A stretch of 54,569 nucleotides of DNA from positions 1 to 54,569 of the forward strand of contig JALSLH010000040.1 of the NCBI GenBank assembly GCA_026988435.1, given 5' to 3'. The notes under the pieces are model-generated. The model was not told where the DNA came from. It saw only the letters and a program-made list of their open reading frames with translations, and ran no database searches. Position numbers and translations under genes: made by a program. Shown one piece after another: positions 4,167 to 53,856 of this stretch (positions within the stretch are counted from its first letter, which is position 1; each line of letters begins with the position of its first letter). The stretch is from Methylophaga sp. (GTDB lineage Bacteria; Pseudomonadota; Gammaproteobacteria; Nitrosococcales; Methylophagaceae).

Positions 4167-5017
4167 AAAAAATCACTACGGTTTCTGCACTTAGGCTGCT
4201 AGTGGCTGATTGGAAGCAAGCCGGAAAGCGAATTGCTTTTGTTCCAACTATGGGTAATTTGCATCAGGGACACTTATCGTTAGTGAGTAAAGCTACTGAA
4301 CTGGCAGACAAGGTGATTGTTAGCATATTTGTGAACCCTTTACAGTTTGATGATAAAGCTGACCTATCAGCTTATCCACGTACAGTTGAGGTAGATATTG
4401 AACAATTAACATCAGTTGAATGTGATGCAGTATTTTTACCTACGGCAGAAATAATGTATCCCGAAGGCATGGATAGACAAACAGTAATCACTGTGCCCGG
4501 CATGGATGACAAATTATGCGGTCAAGCCCGTCCGGGGCATTTTGATGGTGTGGCTACAGTGGTTGTCAAATTATTCAATATGGTGCAGCCAGATGTGGCT
4601 GTATTCGGTGAAAAAGATTACCAGCAGTTATTATTAATTAAGAAAATGGTGGCAGACTTAAACCTACCACTTAAAATCATAGGTTTGCCGACATATCGTG
4701 AAGAAAGTGGCTTAGCCATGAGTTCTCGCAATCAATATTTAACGAGTAAGCAGCGTAAGCAAGCGGCCTCAATTTATCGAATATTGAATGATATTAAGAC
4801 AGAACTTCTAAATGGTGGGGCGGACTTTGTTAAATTAGAGCAACAAGCAAAGGATGAGTTAACGCAATTAGGTTTTGAGCCAGACTATGTTGAAATTAGG
4901 CGTGCAAGGAACTTAGAGCCAGCAAAACAGTCAGATAAAGAGCTTAGAATTCTCTTGGCAGCACGATTAGGAAAAGCACGGCTAATTGATAATATACCCG
5001 TGACCATTCAATCTTGA
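4163..5017 (+). CDS. panC: Pantothenate synthetase
   Basis: PanC condenses pantoate with beta-alanine using ATP. The adenylylation motif VPTMGNLHQGHLSLV carries His34 and His37 as in E. coli. FGEKDYQQL and the KMSKS-like GLAMSSRNQYL are also present. The length, 284 residues, is normal. The last codons are unusual: from 4992 to 5014 the coding strand is a copy of the MITE end found at 226 and 5991, so the C-terminal IPVTIQS is read from repeat DNA and the TGA lies one base beyond it. The family-typical RLIDN precedes this, so only the dispensable tail seems replaced. Confidence 0.96.
   Translation: MKKITTVSALRLLVADWKQAGKRIAFVPTMGNLHQGHLSLVSKATELADKVIVSIFVNPLQFDDKADLSAYPRTVEVDIEQLTSVECDAVFLPTAEIMYPEGMDRQTVITVPGMDDKLCGQARPGHFDGVATVVVKLFNMVQPDVAVFGEKDYQQLLLIKKMVADLNLPLKIIGLPTYREESGLAMSSRNQYLTSKQRKQAASIYRILNDIKTELLNGGADFVKLEQQAKDELTQLGFEPDYVEIRRARNLEPAKQSDKELRILLAARLGKARLIDNIPVTIQS
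4992..5014. repeat. Solitary MITE end inside the panC 3' end
   Basis: ATATACCCGTGACCATTCAA plus TCT matches bases 227-249 of MITE-1 exactly over 23 bp. It is followed by TGATTGA, which with the preceding TCAATC makes a short imperfect palindrome. This may be a worn remnant of the head-to-head palindrome seen whole at 5993-6038. The repeat encodes the last residues of PanC. Confidence 0.85.
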
Positions 5018-47879: not shown

Positions 47880-49891
47880 AGTCAGCACTCTTACAGGTCA
47901 GAGGATTAAAGACATGGTTGGGTGATAAAGCACTGCCTCTACGTGCTGTAGATGGTGTTGACTTTACGATTAGTCGCGGCGAAACCTTTGCGCTTTTAGG
48001 TGAATCTGGTTGCGGTAAGTCGATGACGGCATTGTCGATACTGCGGCTTAACCCACAGCCTATTAGTCACATTAAAGGTGGACAGGTCATCTTTAATAAT
48101 CAAGATCTATTGTCACTCTCAGAGTTTGAAATGGAAAGCATACGAGGCCGGCGTATTGCTATGATCTTTCAAGAGCCACAAAGCTCATTAAATCCTGTTT
48201 TATCTGTAGCAGAGCAAATAGGAGAATGTTTACAGTGGCGAGATTATTCTAAACAACAACTCAGCAAAAAGATTATTGATTTATTAGAATCGGTGGGGAT
48301 TTCTGATCCACAACAGCGTATGAATGCTTATGCTCATCAATTATCGGGCGGCATGAAGCAGCGGGTTATGATTGCAATGGCATTAGCCGGTGAACCTGAG
48401 CTATTGATTGCTGATGAGCCAACCACAGCCTTAGATGTCACTATTCAGGCACAGATATTAGATTTGTTAAAAGACATTCAAGTTAGAACAGGCATGGCAA
48501 TACTACTGATTAGTCACGACTTAGCGGTTGTTGCTCAAATGGCCGATCATGTGGCCGTTATGTATGCGGGGCAGATTGTTGAAACAGGATCGAGCGAACA
48601 GTTTTTCAAAAACCAACTACATCCTTATACACAAAAACTATTTGAGGCTTTGCCGACACAACAAAAACGACAACAGCGGCTCACAGTCATCAAAGGGCAA
48701 GTGCCTAAGCTAGATCAAGAATTTAAAGGCTGCCGGTTTGCAGCCCGTTGTGAACATGCTGAGCAGCACTGTCATAATCAACCCCCTAAGTGGTATGAAA
48801 ATGACGAACAGGGCGTACGCTGCCATTTATTTAATGGGGAAGGTTTACAAAAAAATATATTGGGTAAAAGAGCAGATCATTTATCTCCATTGTCTGAAGT
48901 AATAGCAACAGAAAAAATAGTGTTAGAACTAAAATCACTATCTGTATATTTTCCAATTCGCAAAGGTTTATTACAAAGAATAGTCGGCAATGTGCGCGCT
49001 GTAGATGATGTGAGTTTAACATTAAATGAGGCCGAGACTGTTGCATTAGTGGGGGAGTCAGGTTGTGGAAAAACAAGTTTTGCAAAAGGGATTTTACAAT
49101 TAATACCTATAACGGATGGACATATTTATTACCTTGGCAGTAAATTGAATGGATTATCGGAGCGACAACTAAAGTCGTATCGTGCAGCGATACAAATGAT
49201 ATTTCAAGATCCCTTTTCATCAATGAACCCGAGAATGACTATTACTCAAATTATTGAAGAGGGCATGTTAGCGAAGCGAGAACAAATTGATTCTTCAGCT
49301 AAATCAAACAAAGTCAGCGAATTATTAGAACGAGTTGGTTTACCATCAGATATAAAACATCGCTATCCTCATGAGTTTTCAGGGGGGCAGCGTCAACGCA
49401 TATGCATTGCAAGGGCTTTAGCAGCTGATCCTAAAGTGATTATTTGTGATGAGCCAACTAGTGCATTAGATGTTTCTGTACAGGCACAAATACTCAATTT
49501 ATTGCGCGATATTCAGCATGAATATGGCTTAACATATTTATTCATTAGTCATAATATTGCTGTAGTAAACTATCTAGCACATCGTGTGGCAGTGATGTAT
49601 TTAGGGCGTATCGTCGAACAAGGTGAACGCGAGCAAGTACTAAACTCACCAAAGCATCCCTATACACAGGCTTTGTTGGCCGCTGTTCCAGAAATAGATA
49701 AAGATAAGCAGCGTGATATCATTCGTTTAGAAGGTGAGTTACCCTCAGCCACTAATCCACCAGAGGGTTGTCATTTTCATCAACGATGCCCACAAGCCAT
49801 GCCAATTTGTCGGCAAAAATACCCAAACCAAACCGAACTATCTAAGAACCATGAGGTACGGTGCTTTTTATATGAGGAAAACAATGAATAA
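47876..49891 (+). CDS. Fused double ABC ATPase of the peptide/nickel family (YejF-like)
   Basis: A 671-residue protein with two nucleotide-binding domains. The first has [29 protein letters not shown] and DEPTTALDV; the second [29 protein letters not shown] and DEPTSALDV. Each ends in the oligopeptide-type tail with cysteines: [15 protein letters not shown] and [15 protein letters not shown]. The arrangement equals OppD-OppF fused as in YejF and GsiA. With a single permease next to it, the transporter may be a homodimer. It is co-transcribed with the permease and overlaps the DUF1244 gene by 8 nt. Confidence 0.93.
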
Positions 49892-50141
49892 ACAAACACA
49901 GTTAGAACTTGAGGCTGCTGCATTTCGTCGCTTAACAAGTCATTTACAAGAGCGTACTGATGTACAAAATATTGATTTAATGGAGCTTGCAGGATTTTGC
50001 CGTAATTGTTTAGCTAAATGGTATATGGCTGCAGCAGAGGATAAAGGCTTAGACATTGATTATGATCAAGCACGAGAGCATGTTTATGGAATGCCTTATA
50101 GTGAATGGAAAGATAAACACCAAATAGGCGCTAAGCGTTAA
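49884..50141 (+). CDS. DUF1244 family protein
   Basis: An 85-residue protein. AAAFRRLTSHLQERTDVQNI, then LMELAGFCRNCLAKWY with a C-R-N-C pair and ending GMPYSEWKDKHQ, matches DUF1244, a small helical family common in proteobacteria with no established function. The ATG at 49884 has GAGG upstream and overlaps the ATPase stop by 8 nt; the longer frame from 49734 lies within the ATPase gene and is not used. It is the last gene before the convergent anti-sigma gene. Confidence 0.9.
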   Translation: MNKQTQLELEAAAFRRLTSHLQERTDVQNIDLMELAGFCRNCLAKWYMAAAEDKGLDIDYDQAREHVYGMPYSEWKDKHQIGAKR

Positions 50142-50147
50142 GAGGCG

Positions 50148-50390
50148 TCAATGATCATGGTTTTTACACAGATCATGTAGTTTCTCAGCTAATGCTTGTG
50201 TATCAGTATTATCATCTTCTTTAGGTTTGGAAACGGTAATCACAGAAATCGTAGAACGAATTTGTTGTAAATAATTACGGCAACAACTGCAAACTAATAG
50301 ATGAAAAAACAAGCCCACACGTTTAGATAGCGGGAGATCGCCATCAATATAGTTGTTCACTTCATCTGCAATGTCTTTACATTGATACAT
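50148..50390 (-). CDS. Zinc-finger anti-sigma factor
   Basis: An 80-residue protein with the zf-HC2 pattern: a first Cys (C4 in MYQCKDIADEVNNYIDGDLP) and the H-x3-C-x2-C motif HLLVCSCC at about 29-37. There is no membrane helix, so it is a soluble ZAS-type factor. The Cys/His zinc site commonly responds to thiol oxidation or metals. It directly follows the ECF sigma gene on the same strand (the sigma TAA and this ATG are adjacent), so it is very probably its anti-sigma factor. Confidence 0.82.
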   Translation of the reverse strand: MYQCKDIADEVNNYIDGDLPLSKRVGLFFHLLVCSCCRNYLQQIRSTISVITVSKPKEDDNTDTQALAEKLHDLCKNHDH

Positions 50391-51059
50391 TTACTTATTG
50401 TCCTGATATTTTTCGATGCTTTGATGCAATGTTGTTCGAGCCCTGTGTAGTAATACCCGTACATTAGACGCGGACACATCTAAGATGTTACAAATTTCTT
50501 TCATTTCGATGCCTTCAAGATCGTATAGTGTTAAGGCGGCTCGTTGTTGGGCAGGTAATTTCTGGAAGCTTTGTTCTATAATCTCTTGCAATTGATCGTT
50601 GGCCAATATTGCTTCAGGTGTCGCTTGTTCCCATGCAAATACATCATCATATCGATGACCGGTATTATCGAATTTGTCAGAGGATACTGATTGCCAGCCT
50701 TCATCTAAAGAGCTATGCCTATTTTCACGGCGAACACGGCTCTTTGCACCATTGCTTACGATATGAAGTAACCATGTTTTTAATGATGAGCGACCTTCAA
50801 ACTTTGGTAATGCTTTAATAGCCGAGATCCAGGCATCTTGCACAACCTCATCAGCAAAAGCTTCACCAACAATGGCTCTAGCTACTGATATCATGAGGTT
50901 TTGGTATTCTGAAACCACTTTTTCAAAAGCAAGTTTTTCCCCGTCAATTAACTGTTTAATTAATCGTTGTTCATCCCGTGATTTTAATTTTGAAAAAAAT
51001 TTCATTCGATTTTGTAACAAATCCATTTTAGGGGGGTCTATGTTAGCAAGCTGAGTCAT
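50391..51059 (-). CDS. ECF-type RNA polymerase sigma factor
   Basis: About 222 residues with region 2 (FEKVVSEYQNLMISVARAIV, then VVQDAWISAIKALPKFEGRS, LKTWLLHIVSNGAKSR) and region 4 (FQKLPAQQRAALTLYDLEGI, EMKEICNILDVSASNVRVLL, HRARTTL). This is the ECF/RpoE family. ATG 51059 is tentatively chosen; a GTG at 51086 and ATGs at 51026 and 51005 are possible, and none has a good ribosome site. It is divergent from the Cys/Met-repeat peptide gene and directly upstream of its anti-sigma gene. Confidence 0.88.
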   Translation of the reverse strand: MTQLANIDPPKMDLLQNRMKFFSKLKSRDEQRLIKQLIDGEKLAFEKVVSEYQNLMISVARAIVGEAFADEVVQDAWISAIKALPKFEGRSSLKTWLLHIVSNGAKSRVRRENRHSSLDEGWQSVSSDKFDNTGHRYDDVFAWEQATPEAILANDQLQEIIEQSFQKLPAQQRAALTLYDLEGIEMKEICNILDVSASNVRVLLHRARTTLHQSIEKYQDNK

Positions 51060-51060
51060 G

Positions 51061-51074
51061 AATGACCGGTTATT
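51061..51074. promoter_or_regulatory. Imperfect dyad in the divergent region of the sigma and HvfA-like genes
   Basis: AATGACCGGTTATT matches its own reverse complement at 12 of 14 positions around ACCGGT. It lies in the 44-nt gap between the sigma and peptide start codons, where a regulator or two overlapping promoters could act. I do not recognise a known operator. Confidence 0.3.
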
Positions 51075-51103
51075 ATTATTTTTCACAATACTATAGGAAG
51101 TTT

Positions 51104-51568
51104 ATGATGTCTATTACTACTAATAAAAAAACAATCGCCCTAGTTACTGGCGCTGCATTAACAGCAGGTCTTGCACTCACTCCGATGATGGCTAGTGCTG
51201 AGACTGCTAATCCATTTTCATCTGCTGAATTGTCTAGTGGTTATATGCAACTTGCCGAAGGAAAATGTGGCGAAAATATGAAAAAAGAGGCTGAAGCTAA
51301 ATGTGGCGCTAAAATGAAAGCAGAACATGAGGCTAAATGTGGCGAAAATATGAAGAAAGATGCCGAAGCTAAATGCGGTGAAAATATGAAGAAAGATGCT
51401 GAAGCTAAATGTGGCGAAAATATGGGTAAAGAGGCTGAAGCTAAATGTGGCGCTAAGATGAAAGAAAAAATGGAAGAAGGTAAATGCGGCGAAGCAAAAT
51501 GTGGTGCTAATAAGAAAAAAGCTGAAGGCAAATGTGGTGAAGCAAAATGCGGTGCTGACAAAAAATAA
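51104..51568 (+). CDS. HvfA-like Cys/Met-repeat secreted peptide (putative RiPP metallophore precursor)
   Basis: A 154-residue protein. A signal peptide of about 32 residues (TIALVTGAALTAGLALTP, then MMASA) is followed by a short spacer and, from residue 52, six 12-residue repeats with one Cys and one Met each: E-[AG]-K-C-G-[EA]-[NK]-M-x-[KA]-E/D-x. The Cys are at 55, 67, 79, 91, 103 and 115, with Met four residues after each. A closing region has four more KCG motifs. In all there are ten KCG motifs, three of EGKCG type and seven of EAKCG type. EGKCG is the site modified in HvfA, an oxazolone/thioamide copper-binding RiPP of Haemophilus (established knowledge). Start 51104 (or 51107) follows AGGA. 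A strong terminator follows. Confidence 0.75.
   Translation: MMSITTNKKTIALVTGAALTAGLALTPMMASAETANPFSSAELSSGYMQLAEGKCGENMKKEAEAKCGAKMKAEHEAKCGENMKKDAEAKCGENMKKDAEAKCGENMGKEAEAKCGAKMKEKMEEGKCGEAKCGANKKKAEGKCGEAKCGADKK
51257..51472 (+). repeat. Six in-frame 36-bp tandem repeats in the peptide gene
   Basis: Each 36-bp unit encodes 12 residues around AAATGTGGC (KCG) and a Met codon at position 8. Units 3 and 4 are almost identical in DNA (GAAAATATGAAGAAAGATGC), pointing to recent duplication. The number of units could vary between strains. Confidence 0.85.
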
Positions 51569-51596
51569 CCGTCTTTATTCGAGCAGAAAATAATGA

Positions 51597-51622
51597 AAGG
51601 GGGCTCTGCGGAGCCCTTTTTT
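51597..51622 (+). terminator. Rho-independent terminator after the HvfA-like gene
   Basis: GGGCTC (51601-51606) pairs with GAGCCC (51611-51616) around TGCG, followed by six T. Weaker A/G-T pairs extend the stem outward. It lies 33 nt after the peptide gene and 77 nt before the DoxX gene, so it should uncouple high peptide expression from the rest of the cluster unless read through. Confidence 0.88.
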
Positions 51623-51698
51623 ATAATGGTAAGTTATATTAATTTCAAGCTATAACAGGGTGTAATTAGTAGAGCTATCCAAATTTAGGAGAAGCACG

Positions 51699-52277
51699 AT
51701 GTTTATATGTAAAATTGCGCATACATTTCAAGGCTTGTTAAATAAGACGCGAGCGGTGGATTTCCTAGCTCCATTAGCATTACGTTTATATTTAGCGCCA
51801 GTATTTTGGATGGCGGCAAATCATAAGTGGAATCCTTTTGATAGTGAGAGTTCGTTGCAGGGCACTATTGATTGGTTTGGCGGTTCGTTAGGCATGCCCT
51901 TTCCTGAGATTATGGCTCATTTAGCATGGAGTGCTGAATATTTTGGTGCTATCTTACTGGTCTTAGGTCTGGCAGTGCGCTGGGTTTCTATTCCGTTAAT
52001 GGCAACAATGATTGTAGCAGCACTAACGGTGCATTTAGATAACGGTTGGTTGGCTATTTCAGATTCAGCAGGATCTCAAGTTGCAGCAGCGCGGAGTATT
52101 TTGAAAGAGCATGGTAACTATGAATGGTTAACGGAGCAGGGTAACTTTGTTGTGCTTAATAATGGTATTGAATTTGCTACTACCTATTTCATTATGCTGT
52201 TGACTTTATTTTTCATTGGTGCAGGTAAATATGTCAGTGCTGATTATTGGATTGCTAGAAAATTCTCAAATTGTTAA
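51699..52277 (+). CDS. DoxX family membrane protein, HvfX-like
   Basis: A 192-residue inner-membrane protein with about four helices. RLYLAPVFWMAANHKWNPFD, GMPFPEIMAHLAWSAEYFGA and LVLGLAVRWVSIPLMATMIV are typical DoxX; the variant with the inserted periplasmic loop (LDNGWLAI to ATTYFIMLL) is found beside HvfA peptides and is named HvfX in databases (recollection). It is thought to help mature or move the copper-binding peptide. AGGAG lies 7 nt before the ATG. msrP follows 15 nt later. Confidence 0.75.
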   Translation: MFICKIAHTFQGLLNKTRAVDFLAPLALRLYLAPVFWMAANHKWNPFDSESSLQGTIDWFGGSLGMPFPEIMAHLAWSAEYFGAILLVLGLAVRWVSIPLMATMIVAALTVHLDNGWLAISDSAGSQVAAARSILKEHGNYEWLTEQGNFVVLNNGIEFATTYFIMLLTLFFIGAGKYVSADYWIARKFSNC

Positions 52278-52292
52278 ATCTGGAGACAATAC

Positions 52293-53255
52293 ATGTTCAT
52301 TCGTAAAAAAAGACTAGGTGAATTGCCGGCAAGTGAAATAACTGATCATCAAGTCTATCTTGATCGCAGAAAGTTTTTAAACGGTACAGCGGCTATTGCT
52401 ACGGCAAGTTTATTACCTTTTTCAATGGTTAGCGCTAAGTCAGGTATGCCCGAAGCGACTTATTTAGATCTAAAGAAAAGTCCTTATTCAACGGATGAAG
52501 AGCCGACAAGTTATGAATCTGCCACGACTTACAATAACTATTATGAGTTTGGAACAGGTAAGTCTGATCCAGCGCTTAGACTAAAAAATATAGACTTTCC
52601 TGATAAATCAACGCCATGGCGTATATCCATAGAAGGGGAGTGTGATAAGCCGGGTGAATATGATTATGATGATTTAATTCGTCCCTTTACACTAGAAGAA
52701 CGTATTTATCGATTTCGTTGTGTAGAAGGTTGGTCAATGGTGATTCCATGGGTAGGCTTCCCATTAGCAGATTTGATTAAGCGGGCACAGCCTAACTCAA
52801 GGGCAAAATATGTTGAGTTCACAACGTTTTATGATCCTGAAATAATGATCAAACGTAATGTATTGGATTGGCCTTATACAGAAGGCTTGCGAATTGATGA
52901 AGCAATGAATCCGCTTACTTTGTTAGCGGTGGGATTATATGGTAGTGAATTGCCAGGTCAGAACGGCGCACCTATCCGATTGGTGGTGCCGTGGAAATAT
53001 GGCTTTAAAAATATCAAATCAATTGTAAAAATTCGTTTTGTTGAAGAGATGCCCAATTCGGCTTGGATGAAAGCAGGTCCAAGAGAATATGGCTTTTATT
53101 CTAATGTAAATCCTGATGTGCCTCACCCTCGTTGGAGCCAAAGCAAAGAACGACGTTTAGGTGAGTTCTTGAAACGTAAAACAGAAATGTTTAATGGATA
53201 CGAAGAACAAGTTGCAAGCTTATATACGGGTATGGATTTAACAAAAAACTTCTAA
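52293..53255 (+). CDS. msrP: Protein-methionine-sulfoxide reductase catalytic subunit
   Basis: MsrP (formerly YedY) is a periplasmic molybdopterin enzyme that reduces methionine sulfoxide in exported proteins. In 320 residues it has a twin-arginine signal ([13 protein letters not shown], Arg25-Arg26), the molybdenum-ligating Cys143 in [15 protein letters not shown], then [20 protein letters not shown] and a C-terminus ending [12 protein letters not shown]. Length and motifs match E. coli MsrP (334 residues). It is 4 nt from msrQ and follows the HvfX-like gene. Control by the nearby sigma factor is possible but not shown. Confidence 0.95.
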
Positions 53256-53259
53256 ACTT

Positions 53260-53856
53260 ATGTCAAAGCTAAAAATCAGTTTATTTGTTGCCAGTTTAAT
53301 TCCGGCAGTCTGGCTTACGTATGCCTTATTAACTAATCAGTTGGGTGCAAACCCAATTGAGGCAATTACACGTGAAACGGGCTTATGGGCCTTACGTTTT
53401 TTGTGGATAACATTATTGATAACACCGCTACGTTGGTTAACGGGCTGGAATAAATTGACAACATTACGGCGTATGCTAGGTTTATATGTGTTTTTTTATG
53501 CCACACTTCATATGTTGCTTTATCTCTGGTTAGATCAGTTCTTCGATATTAACGATATCATCACTGATATTATCAAACGGCCGTTTATTACGATAGGATT
53601 TTTTACTTTTACAGCTTTAATCCCATTAGTAATCACATCTAATAATGCAATGGTTAAGCGCTTAGGTGGCAAGCGTTGGAAAAGGCTCCATCGCCTAACG
53701 TATTTCATAGCTATCGCTAGTTCTATTCATTTTTATATGCTGGTTAAATTAGATAAAACAGAACCACTAGTTTATATAGTTATACTTTCAGTTTTGTTTG
53801 CTGTGCGCATCTACAACAAGTATAAAAAATCAAACTCAATTGCCGTATTTAGCTAG
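53260..53856 (+). CDS. msrQ: Heme-binding quinol-oxidising subunit of MsrPQ
   Basis: MsrQ (YedZ) is the inner-membrane heme b protein that passes electrons to MsrP. It has 198 residues with about six helices: near 5-24, 45-60 (LRFLWITLLITPLRWLTG), 75-92 (LYVFFYATLHMLLYLW, a heme His), 105-125, 140-160 (HRLTYFIAIASSIHFYM, further heme His) and 165-180. Length equals the family. It forms an operon with msrP. Confidence 0.93.
   Translation: MSKLKISLFVASLIPAVWLTYALLTNQLGANPIEAITRETGLWALRFLWITLLITPLRWLTGWNKLTTLRRMLGLYVFFYATLHMLLYLWLDQFFDINDIITDIIKRPFITIGFFTFTALIPLVITSNNAMVKRLGGKRWKRLHRLTYFIAIASSIHFYMLVKLDKTEPLVYIVILSVLFAVRIYNKYKKSNSIAVFS

Follow-up and report, generated by a model that had tools for sequence, protein, structure and literature searches.

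How an HvfA-family precursor peptide could be matured without the enzymes that act on such peptides being encoded beside it, and why genes for the methionine sulfoxide reductase system MsrPQ should stand next to it instead, are questions raised by a locus on contig JALSLH010000040.1 of a Methylophaga sp. genome (the window, that is the whole stretch of 54,569 nucleotides analyzed; contig C40 of this genome). The layout is divergent: genes for an extracytoplasmic function (ECF) sigma factor and its anti-sigma factor lie on the minus strand, while the hvfA-family gene, hvfX, msrP and msrQ follow each other on the plus strand. This gene order had been described in a sequence-only reading of the window, and Pfam and NCBIfam profile searches confirmed every gene in its place. 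The genome measures 2.57 Mb in 95 contigs (95.1 % complete, 5.94 % contamination), and among the matches listed, the best named counterparts of its hvfX locus come from metagenome-assembled genomes of Methylophaga and Methylophagaceae. The comparisons described here suggest, with a probability of roughly 0.7, that the locus makes up half of a copper/oxidant stress regulon of the Hvf type, the two parts of which lie at separate places on the chromosome in Methylophagaceae.

The sequence-only reading had stated that hvfB and hvfC are lacking from the 54 kb window, and profile scans of the genome agree, placing all matches to DUF692 and HvfC outside it. Its further inference of a system lacking HvfB and HvfC did not hold. 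The genome-wide search for DUF692 and HvfC homologues that it had proposed revealed two DUF692 genes, on contigs C25 and C50. The C25 gene encodes HvfB (NF003818, 446.6 bits, cut-off 360; 280.7 bits with the BufB model) and is overlapped by a gene encoding HvfC (NF050145, 308.5 bits, cut-off 142). No HvfA peptide was found beside these two genes, nor a second HvfA-type peptide anywhere in this genome, all HvfA-family matches being in the window. The C50 gene encodes BufB and is part of a bufA2-bufB-bufC cluster (L001:1153-3125). The presence of this cluster in the same genome allows for maturation of HvfA by BufB and BufC rather than by HvfB and HvfC. This is very improbable, since BufB has an adjoining BufA2 substrate, the C25 enzyme scores as a member of the HvfB subfamily, and the promoter signature described below is present at C25 hvfB and was not detected at L001, the bufABC locus.

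A survey of 59 genomes, the present one included, showed hvfX in 37 and hvfC in 43 genomes over cut-off, and HvfA-family repeats in 33. Within the family, hvfX exceeds the cut-off in 29 genomes and hvfC does so in every one of them, and hvfC was never found at the hvfX locus: it is on another contig in 27 genomes, and in the two genomes with both on one contig the distance is 601 kb (G034) and 523 kb (G035). The surroundings of the two halves differ as well. In most hvfX loci an ABC transporter gene and a DUF1244 gene lie beyond the anti-sigma gene, and in most hvfBC loci the group faces two conserved genes, one of them encoding a permease. The split between hvfA and hvfBC is thus the usual state of Methylophagaceae. 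The hvfX half is also constant: msrP follows hvfX in 29/29 family loci, msrQ was found in 28, the remaining contig stopping short of it, 27 have the sigma and anti-sigma genes, the other two contigs having hvfX at their very start, and 26 have an hvfA with at least three KCG motifs. The HvfX-MsrPQ neighbourhood survey proposed with the sequence-only reading bears out its partner set, and the sigma/anti-sigma pair, HvfA-HvfX and MsrPQ form a real conserved unit.

Five family genomes (G002, G010, G019, G023 and G026) have hvfC and no hvfX over cut-off, and two (G017 and G029) have neither. A search for msrP in these seven genomes detected one in G019 and none in the other six. The sigma gene is located at a contig end in G002 and G010, so the rest of their locus may have been lost to assembly. 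A wider neighbourhood survey covered the best 80 of at least 549 candidate hvfX loci, a selection biased to close relatives. The fetched flanks of 14 of the best 80 named hvfX loci contain both msrP and msrQ; these 14 belong to Methylophaga or Methylophagaceae or match contigs of the family genomes, and they are not all independent of the 29. One further, weak msrP match (30 %, L174) was seen, and 34 of the 80 loci have hvfA-B-C-X clusters without msrP. In G013 (L070:6345-8314) hvfX, sigma and anti-sigma genes are spread over several frames, resembling decay, with msrP and msrQ each found as a single match, and G008 (L049:4956-5732) has two tandem hvfA genes ahead of hvfX.

The two halves carry a common promoter-like signature. 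GTAAC-N17-GT(C/A) is present upstream of hvfA in 26/26 family loci; spacings of 15 to 19 were permitted in this search, and every match had 17. GTAAC-N17-GTC is found 54-63 bp ahead of the hvfB start codon in all 28 loci where this region could be read, out of 34 family genomes with hvfC (not covered were G020, with its contig cut, and G004, G011, G014, G024 and G026). An earlier, stricter pattern requiring GTCTA had found no hvfB site in 21 loci. The hvfB core was first noticed by eye and then counted in these 21 loci; L283-L286, completing a set of 25, and three more were checked later and were all positive. In the 25 hvfB loci the hvfB sites are the sole core matches in 322,842 strand-bases, where 4.4 would be expected by composition, and conservation per column is 1.00 for the core, compared with 0.59 for the spacer and 0.48 for the flanking bases. 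No core was detected within 200 bp upstream of hvfX (0/28), msrP (0/28), msrQ (0/27) or the sigma gene (0/27); one DUF1244 row (L043) was excluded from this count as an artefact, its start lying before the locus end. Two SelR (MsrB) loci also lack the core. One core does occur in a longer bufABC stretch (L072); it sits at 4254, within or close to an unrelated gene on the minus strand. Upstream of hvfB, most family genomes examined encode a rhodanese and a 250-aa PepSY-like protein (L002:2377-3522; L213-L232). They were not counted as Hvf parts, because a site of its own precedes hvfB and some relatives lack one of the two genes or both.

Several observations weigh against a regulon split in this way. 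In 27/29 genomes the two halves are judged to be separate because they lie on different contigs, and these assemblies are fragmented; that the two halves are neighbours cut by contig ends was considered and rejected, as the ABC transporter gene of the divergent locus was found in 0/25 hvfBC loci. The motif alone defines no regulon, because TGTAAC-N17-GTC matches in the own genome (14) are no commoner than those of a reversed control (18). With a position weight matrix built from the hvfA sites, the hvfB site came top in no more than 10/21 loci, and the signature is absent before hvfA of other lineages (0/32). Finally, a reduced relative tells against a simple pairing of this sigma factor with this promoter. 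The genome of G019 (99 % complete, 3 contigs) has a short hvfA directly ahead of msrP-msrQ (L282:2666-2962) and also retains hvfBC, with promoter sites on both halves; hvfX and the local sigma pair were not found in it, nor any orthologue of the sigma factor (best match 30 % identity), so that its promoters may be recognised by a different factor. Having outlasted hvfX and the local sigma pair, hvfA-msrPQ is the most persistent part of the locus in G019.

It could also be that two independent stress modules merely share a neighbourhood, with the hvfA transcript ending at a terminator and hvfX-msrPQ being expressed otherwise. A hairpin followed by a T-run (below -8 kcal/mol) lies between hvfA and hvfX in 23/25 family intergenic regions, the other two having a hairpin without a run of four T, and the lack of the signature upstream of hvfX and msrP points in the same direction. 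Two modules are nevertheless unlikely in view of the invariable succession of hvfX and msrP, and at several loci (e.g. L037, L053 and L058) hvfX starts very soon after the hairpin. Because this leaves little space for a new promoter behind it, partial read-through past the hairpin into hvfX-msrPQ is the preferred reading of the transcript layout.

The position of msrPQ in the same gene run as the peptide gene had led to the suggestion that the peptide forms an array of Met and Cys residues which is sacrificial or binds copper, functions by itself without HvfB/HvfC chemistry and has its methionines regenerated by MsrPQ. There is a precedent, as E. coli MsrPQ restores Met of the periplasmic copper chaperone CusF according to the abstract of PMC9302797; the HvfA of the window has 7 Met in its repeat domain, and the linkage of hvfA with msrPQ in G019 fits as well. 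One Met per repeat, as had been claimed, was however not found: only 6 of the 10 repeats read KCGxxM. Met is also not conserved among relatives. The 27 HvfA peptides of family loci have on average 0.43 Met per KCG, with 7 peptides lacking Met in the repeat domain, and the 41 HvfA of other lineages have 0.32, with 21 lacking it, a difference that is not significant (P = 0.077). A Met array was therefore rejected as a conserved trait explaining the MsrPQ linkage, and the proposal that MsrPQ regenerates the peptide is left without support, though still conceivable in view of the CusF precedent. As hvfB and hvfC moreover exist and bear a matching promoter signature, a self-sufficient Met/Cys array is quite unlikely. 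More likely MsrPQ is the repair arm of the split Hvf system.

The split regulon may work as follows. An oxidant or metal would strike the zinc-thiol anti-sigma factor, by analogy with its homologues, and the ECF sigma factor would be released and read the GTAAC-N17-GTC promoters of hvfA at this locus and of hvfBC elsewhere; the motif itself is present at both, and its recognition by this sigma factor is presumed. Following published homologues, HvfB and HvfC would then convert the KCG cysteines of the HvfA precursor to 5-thiooxazoles in trans, and the modified HvfA would be exported and would buffer periplasmic Cu(I). The hairpin behind hvfA would probably yield more precursor transcript than read-through into hvfX-msrP-msrQ. 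MsrPQ would act as a parallel arm, repairing oxidised methionine of envelope proteins when this stress occurs, and HvfA need not be a special substrate. The response to metal or oxidant put forward in the sequence-only reading remains the best reading of the conserved unit.

A further candidate for the system came from the own genome, where one core match lies ahead of a gene for a protein with a Glu_synthase domain (Table 1). GTAAC-N17-GTC is present upstream of this gene in 7/18 family loci with a full-length start, the own one included and two loci with truncated matches left out; in 5/23 glutamate-synthase loci examined the core match is located elsewhere instead. In other Gammaproteobacteria a relative of this protein is encoded within the fetched hvfX locus in 22 of the best 80 loci, 19 of these at 60 % identity or more, and in G046 (L062) it is encoded between hvfB and hvfX. 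This membrane protein is perhaps an extra Hvf partner. A bolder proposal combines two elements: MsrPQ would be a dedicated redox partner keeping methionines or thiooxazole-copper sites of the HvfA product reduced, and the membrane-anchored glutamate-synthase-domain protein would be an unrecognised third Hvf arm. As a whole this is rather doubtful. Related arrangements were seen in two other loci. A Pseudomonadales locus (L209:4927-8185) has sigma, MseR-like anti-sigma, hvfX and a CDGSH-like/glutamate-synthase-like open reading frame (ORF) in series (CDGSH assigned by eye), and a betaproteobacterial hvfX locus (L202:267-5108) has a sigma/anti-sigma pair with a Rieske-like/glutamate-synthase-like ORF nearby (by eye).

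Table 1 Features of the divergent hvfA locus (positions in the window) and the candidate partner gene elsewhere in the genome
Feature	Position	Strand	Basis
DUF1244 gene, beyond anti-sigma	49884..50141	+	PF06844
Zinc-binding (ZAS) anti-sigma factor, 80 aa	50148..50390	-	NF052368 48.2 bits (cut-off 50); zf-HC2 17.3 (cut-off 22.2)
ECF sigma factor	50391..51086	-	Sigma70_r2 and r4_2; TIGR02937 97.4 bits (cut-off 42.9)
ECF-type promoter-like site of hvfA, TGTAAC-N17-GTC	51013..51038	+	pattern search
HvfA-family precursor peptide	51104..51568	+	NF050137 72.6 bits (cut-off 19.5), 5 stretches
Terminator-like hairpin with T-run, hvfA-hvfX intergenic region	51599..51622	+	hairpin scan; consensus scan lists stem on - strand only
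hvfX (DoxX family)	51699..52277	+	NF050144 210.1 bits (cut-off 80); PF07681
msrP	52293..53255	+	NF003767 448.6 bits (cut-off 207)
msrQ	53260..53856	+	NF003831 184.2 bits (cut-off 130)
Glutamate-synthase-domain protein, hydrophobic N-terminal stretch (by eye)	C60; L241:1583-3025, L289:3553-4995		PF01645 296.3 bits; core 82 bp upstream

The peptide has a signal-peptide-like start (by eye), a SSGYMQLAEG stretch and 10 KCG repeats. It passes the repeat-domain model and remains short of the cut-off of the HvfA equivalog model NF050188 (38.4 bits, cut-off 95), and is therefore named HvfA-family. The anti-sigma factor scores below both curated cut-offs, yet its pattern of C4, H30, C34 and C37 is invariant: these residues are identical in 27/27 proteins compared (one from a Pseudomonadales locus, the others from 26 family loci; family locus L070 was left out, its match not beginning at residue 1). 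The longest ORF of the sigma factor starts at GTG 51086, and ATG 51059 or ATG 51005 are possible starts as well. All 29 family MsrP proteins share the motif CVEGWS, the cysteine of which we take to be the molybdenum-site Cys, and 27 have a twin-arginine RR(K/Q)F near the start. The DUF1244 gene adjoins the divergent locus in 26/29 family hvfX loci, the exceptions being L040 and L066 (contigs begin at hvfX) and L059, and is probably outside the system.

Regulons in which an ECF sigma factor joins Hvf or bufferin genes with Msr genes are already known from Neisseria, Haemophilus and Caulobacter, as excerpts of the respective papers show. In Haemophilus influenzae, RpoE2 (HrsE) is an ECF sigma factor with a small cytoplasmic anti-sigma factor that, like the system proposed here, controls Msr and a DoxX cluster; msrAB and a DoxX/UPF0276/DUF2063/small-protein cluster, which we equate with hvfABCX, are induced by hypochlorous acid (PMC7907618). 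There msrAB lies beside the sigma gene and the four-gene cluster is intact elsewhere (PMC7907618), while in Methylophagaceae hvfA-hvfX-msrPQ lies beside the sigma gene, hvfBC is located elsewhere and MsrPQ takes the place of MsrAB. The Neisseria sigma-E/MseR system (NMB2140-NMB2145) likewise has the sigma gene beside DoxX and hypothetical genes and controls MsrAB, and its anti-sigma factor NMB2145 has Cys4 and His30-x3-Cys34-x2-Cys37 at the same positions as the protein described here (PMC2893595). The sigma-E promoter, GTMAGBWTT-N12/13-CGTCTAAH, has at its 12-base spacer the same core distance as GTAAC-N17-GTC, but the letters of its -35 element differ, and the Neisseria genes form one autoregulated operon, with msrAB instead of msrPQ (PMC2893595). 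Caulobacter sigma-F, an ECF sigma factor, controls two DUF2282-DUF692-DUF2063 operons, one with DoxX, and the YedY (MsrP-type) gene CC2748, at separate loci; its precursor is of the DUF2282 type without KCG repeats, its DUF1109 anti-sigma factor has six membrane segments, and its peptide and YedY genes are unlinked (PMC3511200).

The peptide itself resembles captophorins and Buf_EGKCG precursors, which have KCG repeats and are converted by a DUF692 enzyme and a DUF2063 partner to Cu-binding 5-thiooxazoles, but in these clusters the enzymes are mostly kept beside the precursor (PMC12668002, PMC12452194; both in part). A mass loss of 8 Da is given for two modified sites in PMC12668002. In the excerpts of PMC12452194, unlinked precursors are said to be possibly modified by enzymes encoded elsewhere, and one sentence mentions small numbers of EGKCG clusters that include PF00174 or ferric-reductase genes, for which these excerpts name neither a lineage nor a regulator or common promoter. 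The suggestion that this set of partners may be undescribed thus stands in part only. It fails for sigma regulons with Hvf/bufferin and Msr genes (PMC2893595, PMC3511200, PMC7907618) and for EGKCG clusters with PF00174 and ferric-reductase genes (PMC12452194), all as excerpted. As far as the literature searches went, and among the matches listed, it is new that the split runs through the whole lineage, that both halves share a promoter signature and that a glutamate-synthase-like protein may be a partner; 'glutamate synthase' is absent from three papers checked on multinuclear non-heme iron-dependent oxidative enzymes (MNIO), and a literature search yielded none among the matches listed.

The split, apparently co-regulated layout in Methylophagaceae indicates that the precursor and the maturase of a ribosomally synthesized and post-translationally modified peptide can be non-neighbours, and cluster-based mining would therefore label such precursors as orphans. 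Methylophagaceae is also a further lineage tying copper-type KCG peptides to periplasmic methionine repair, here by physical linkage. The promoter signature may aid in looking for the remaining members of the regulon.

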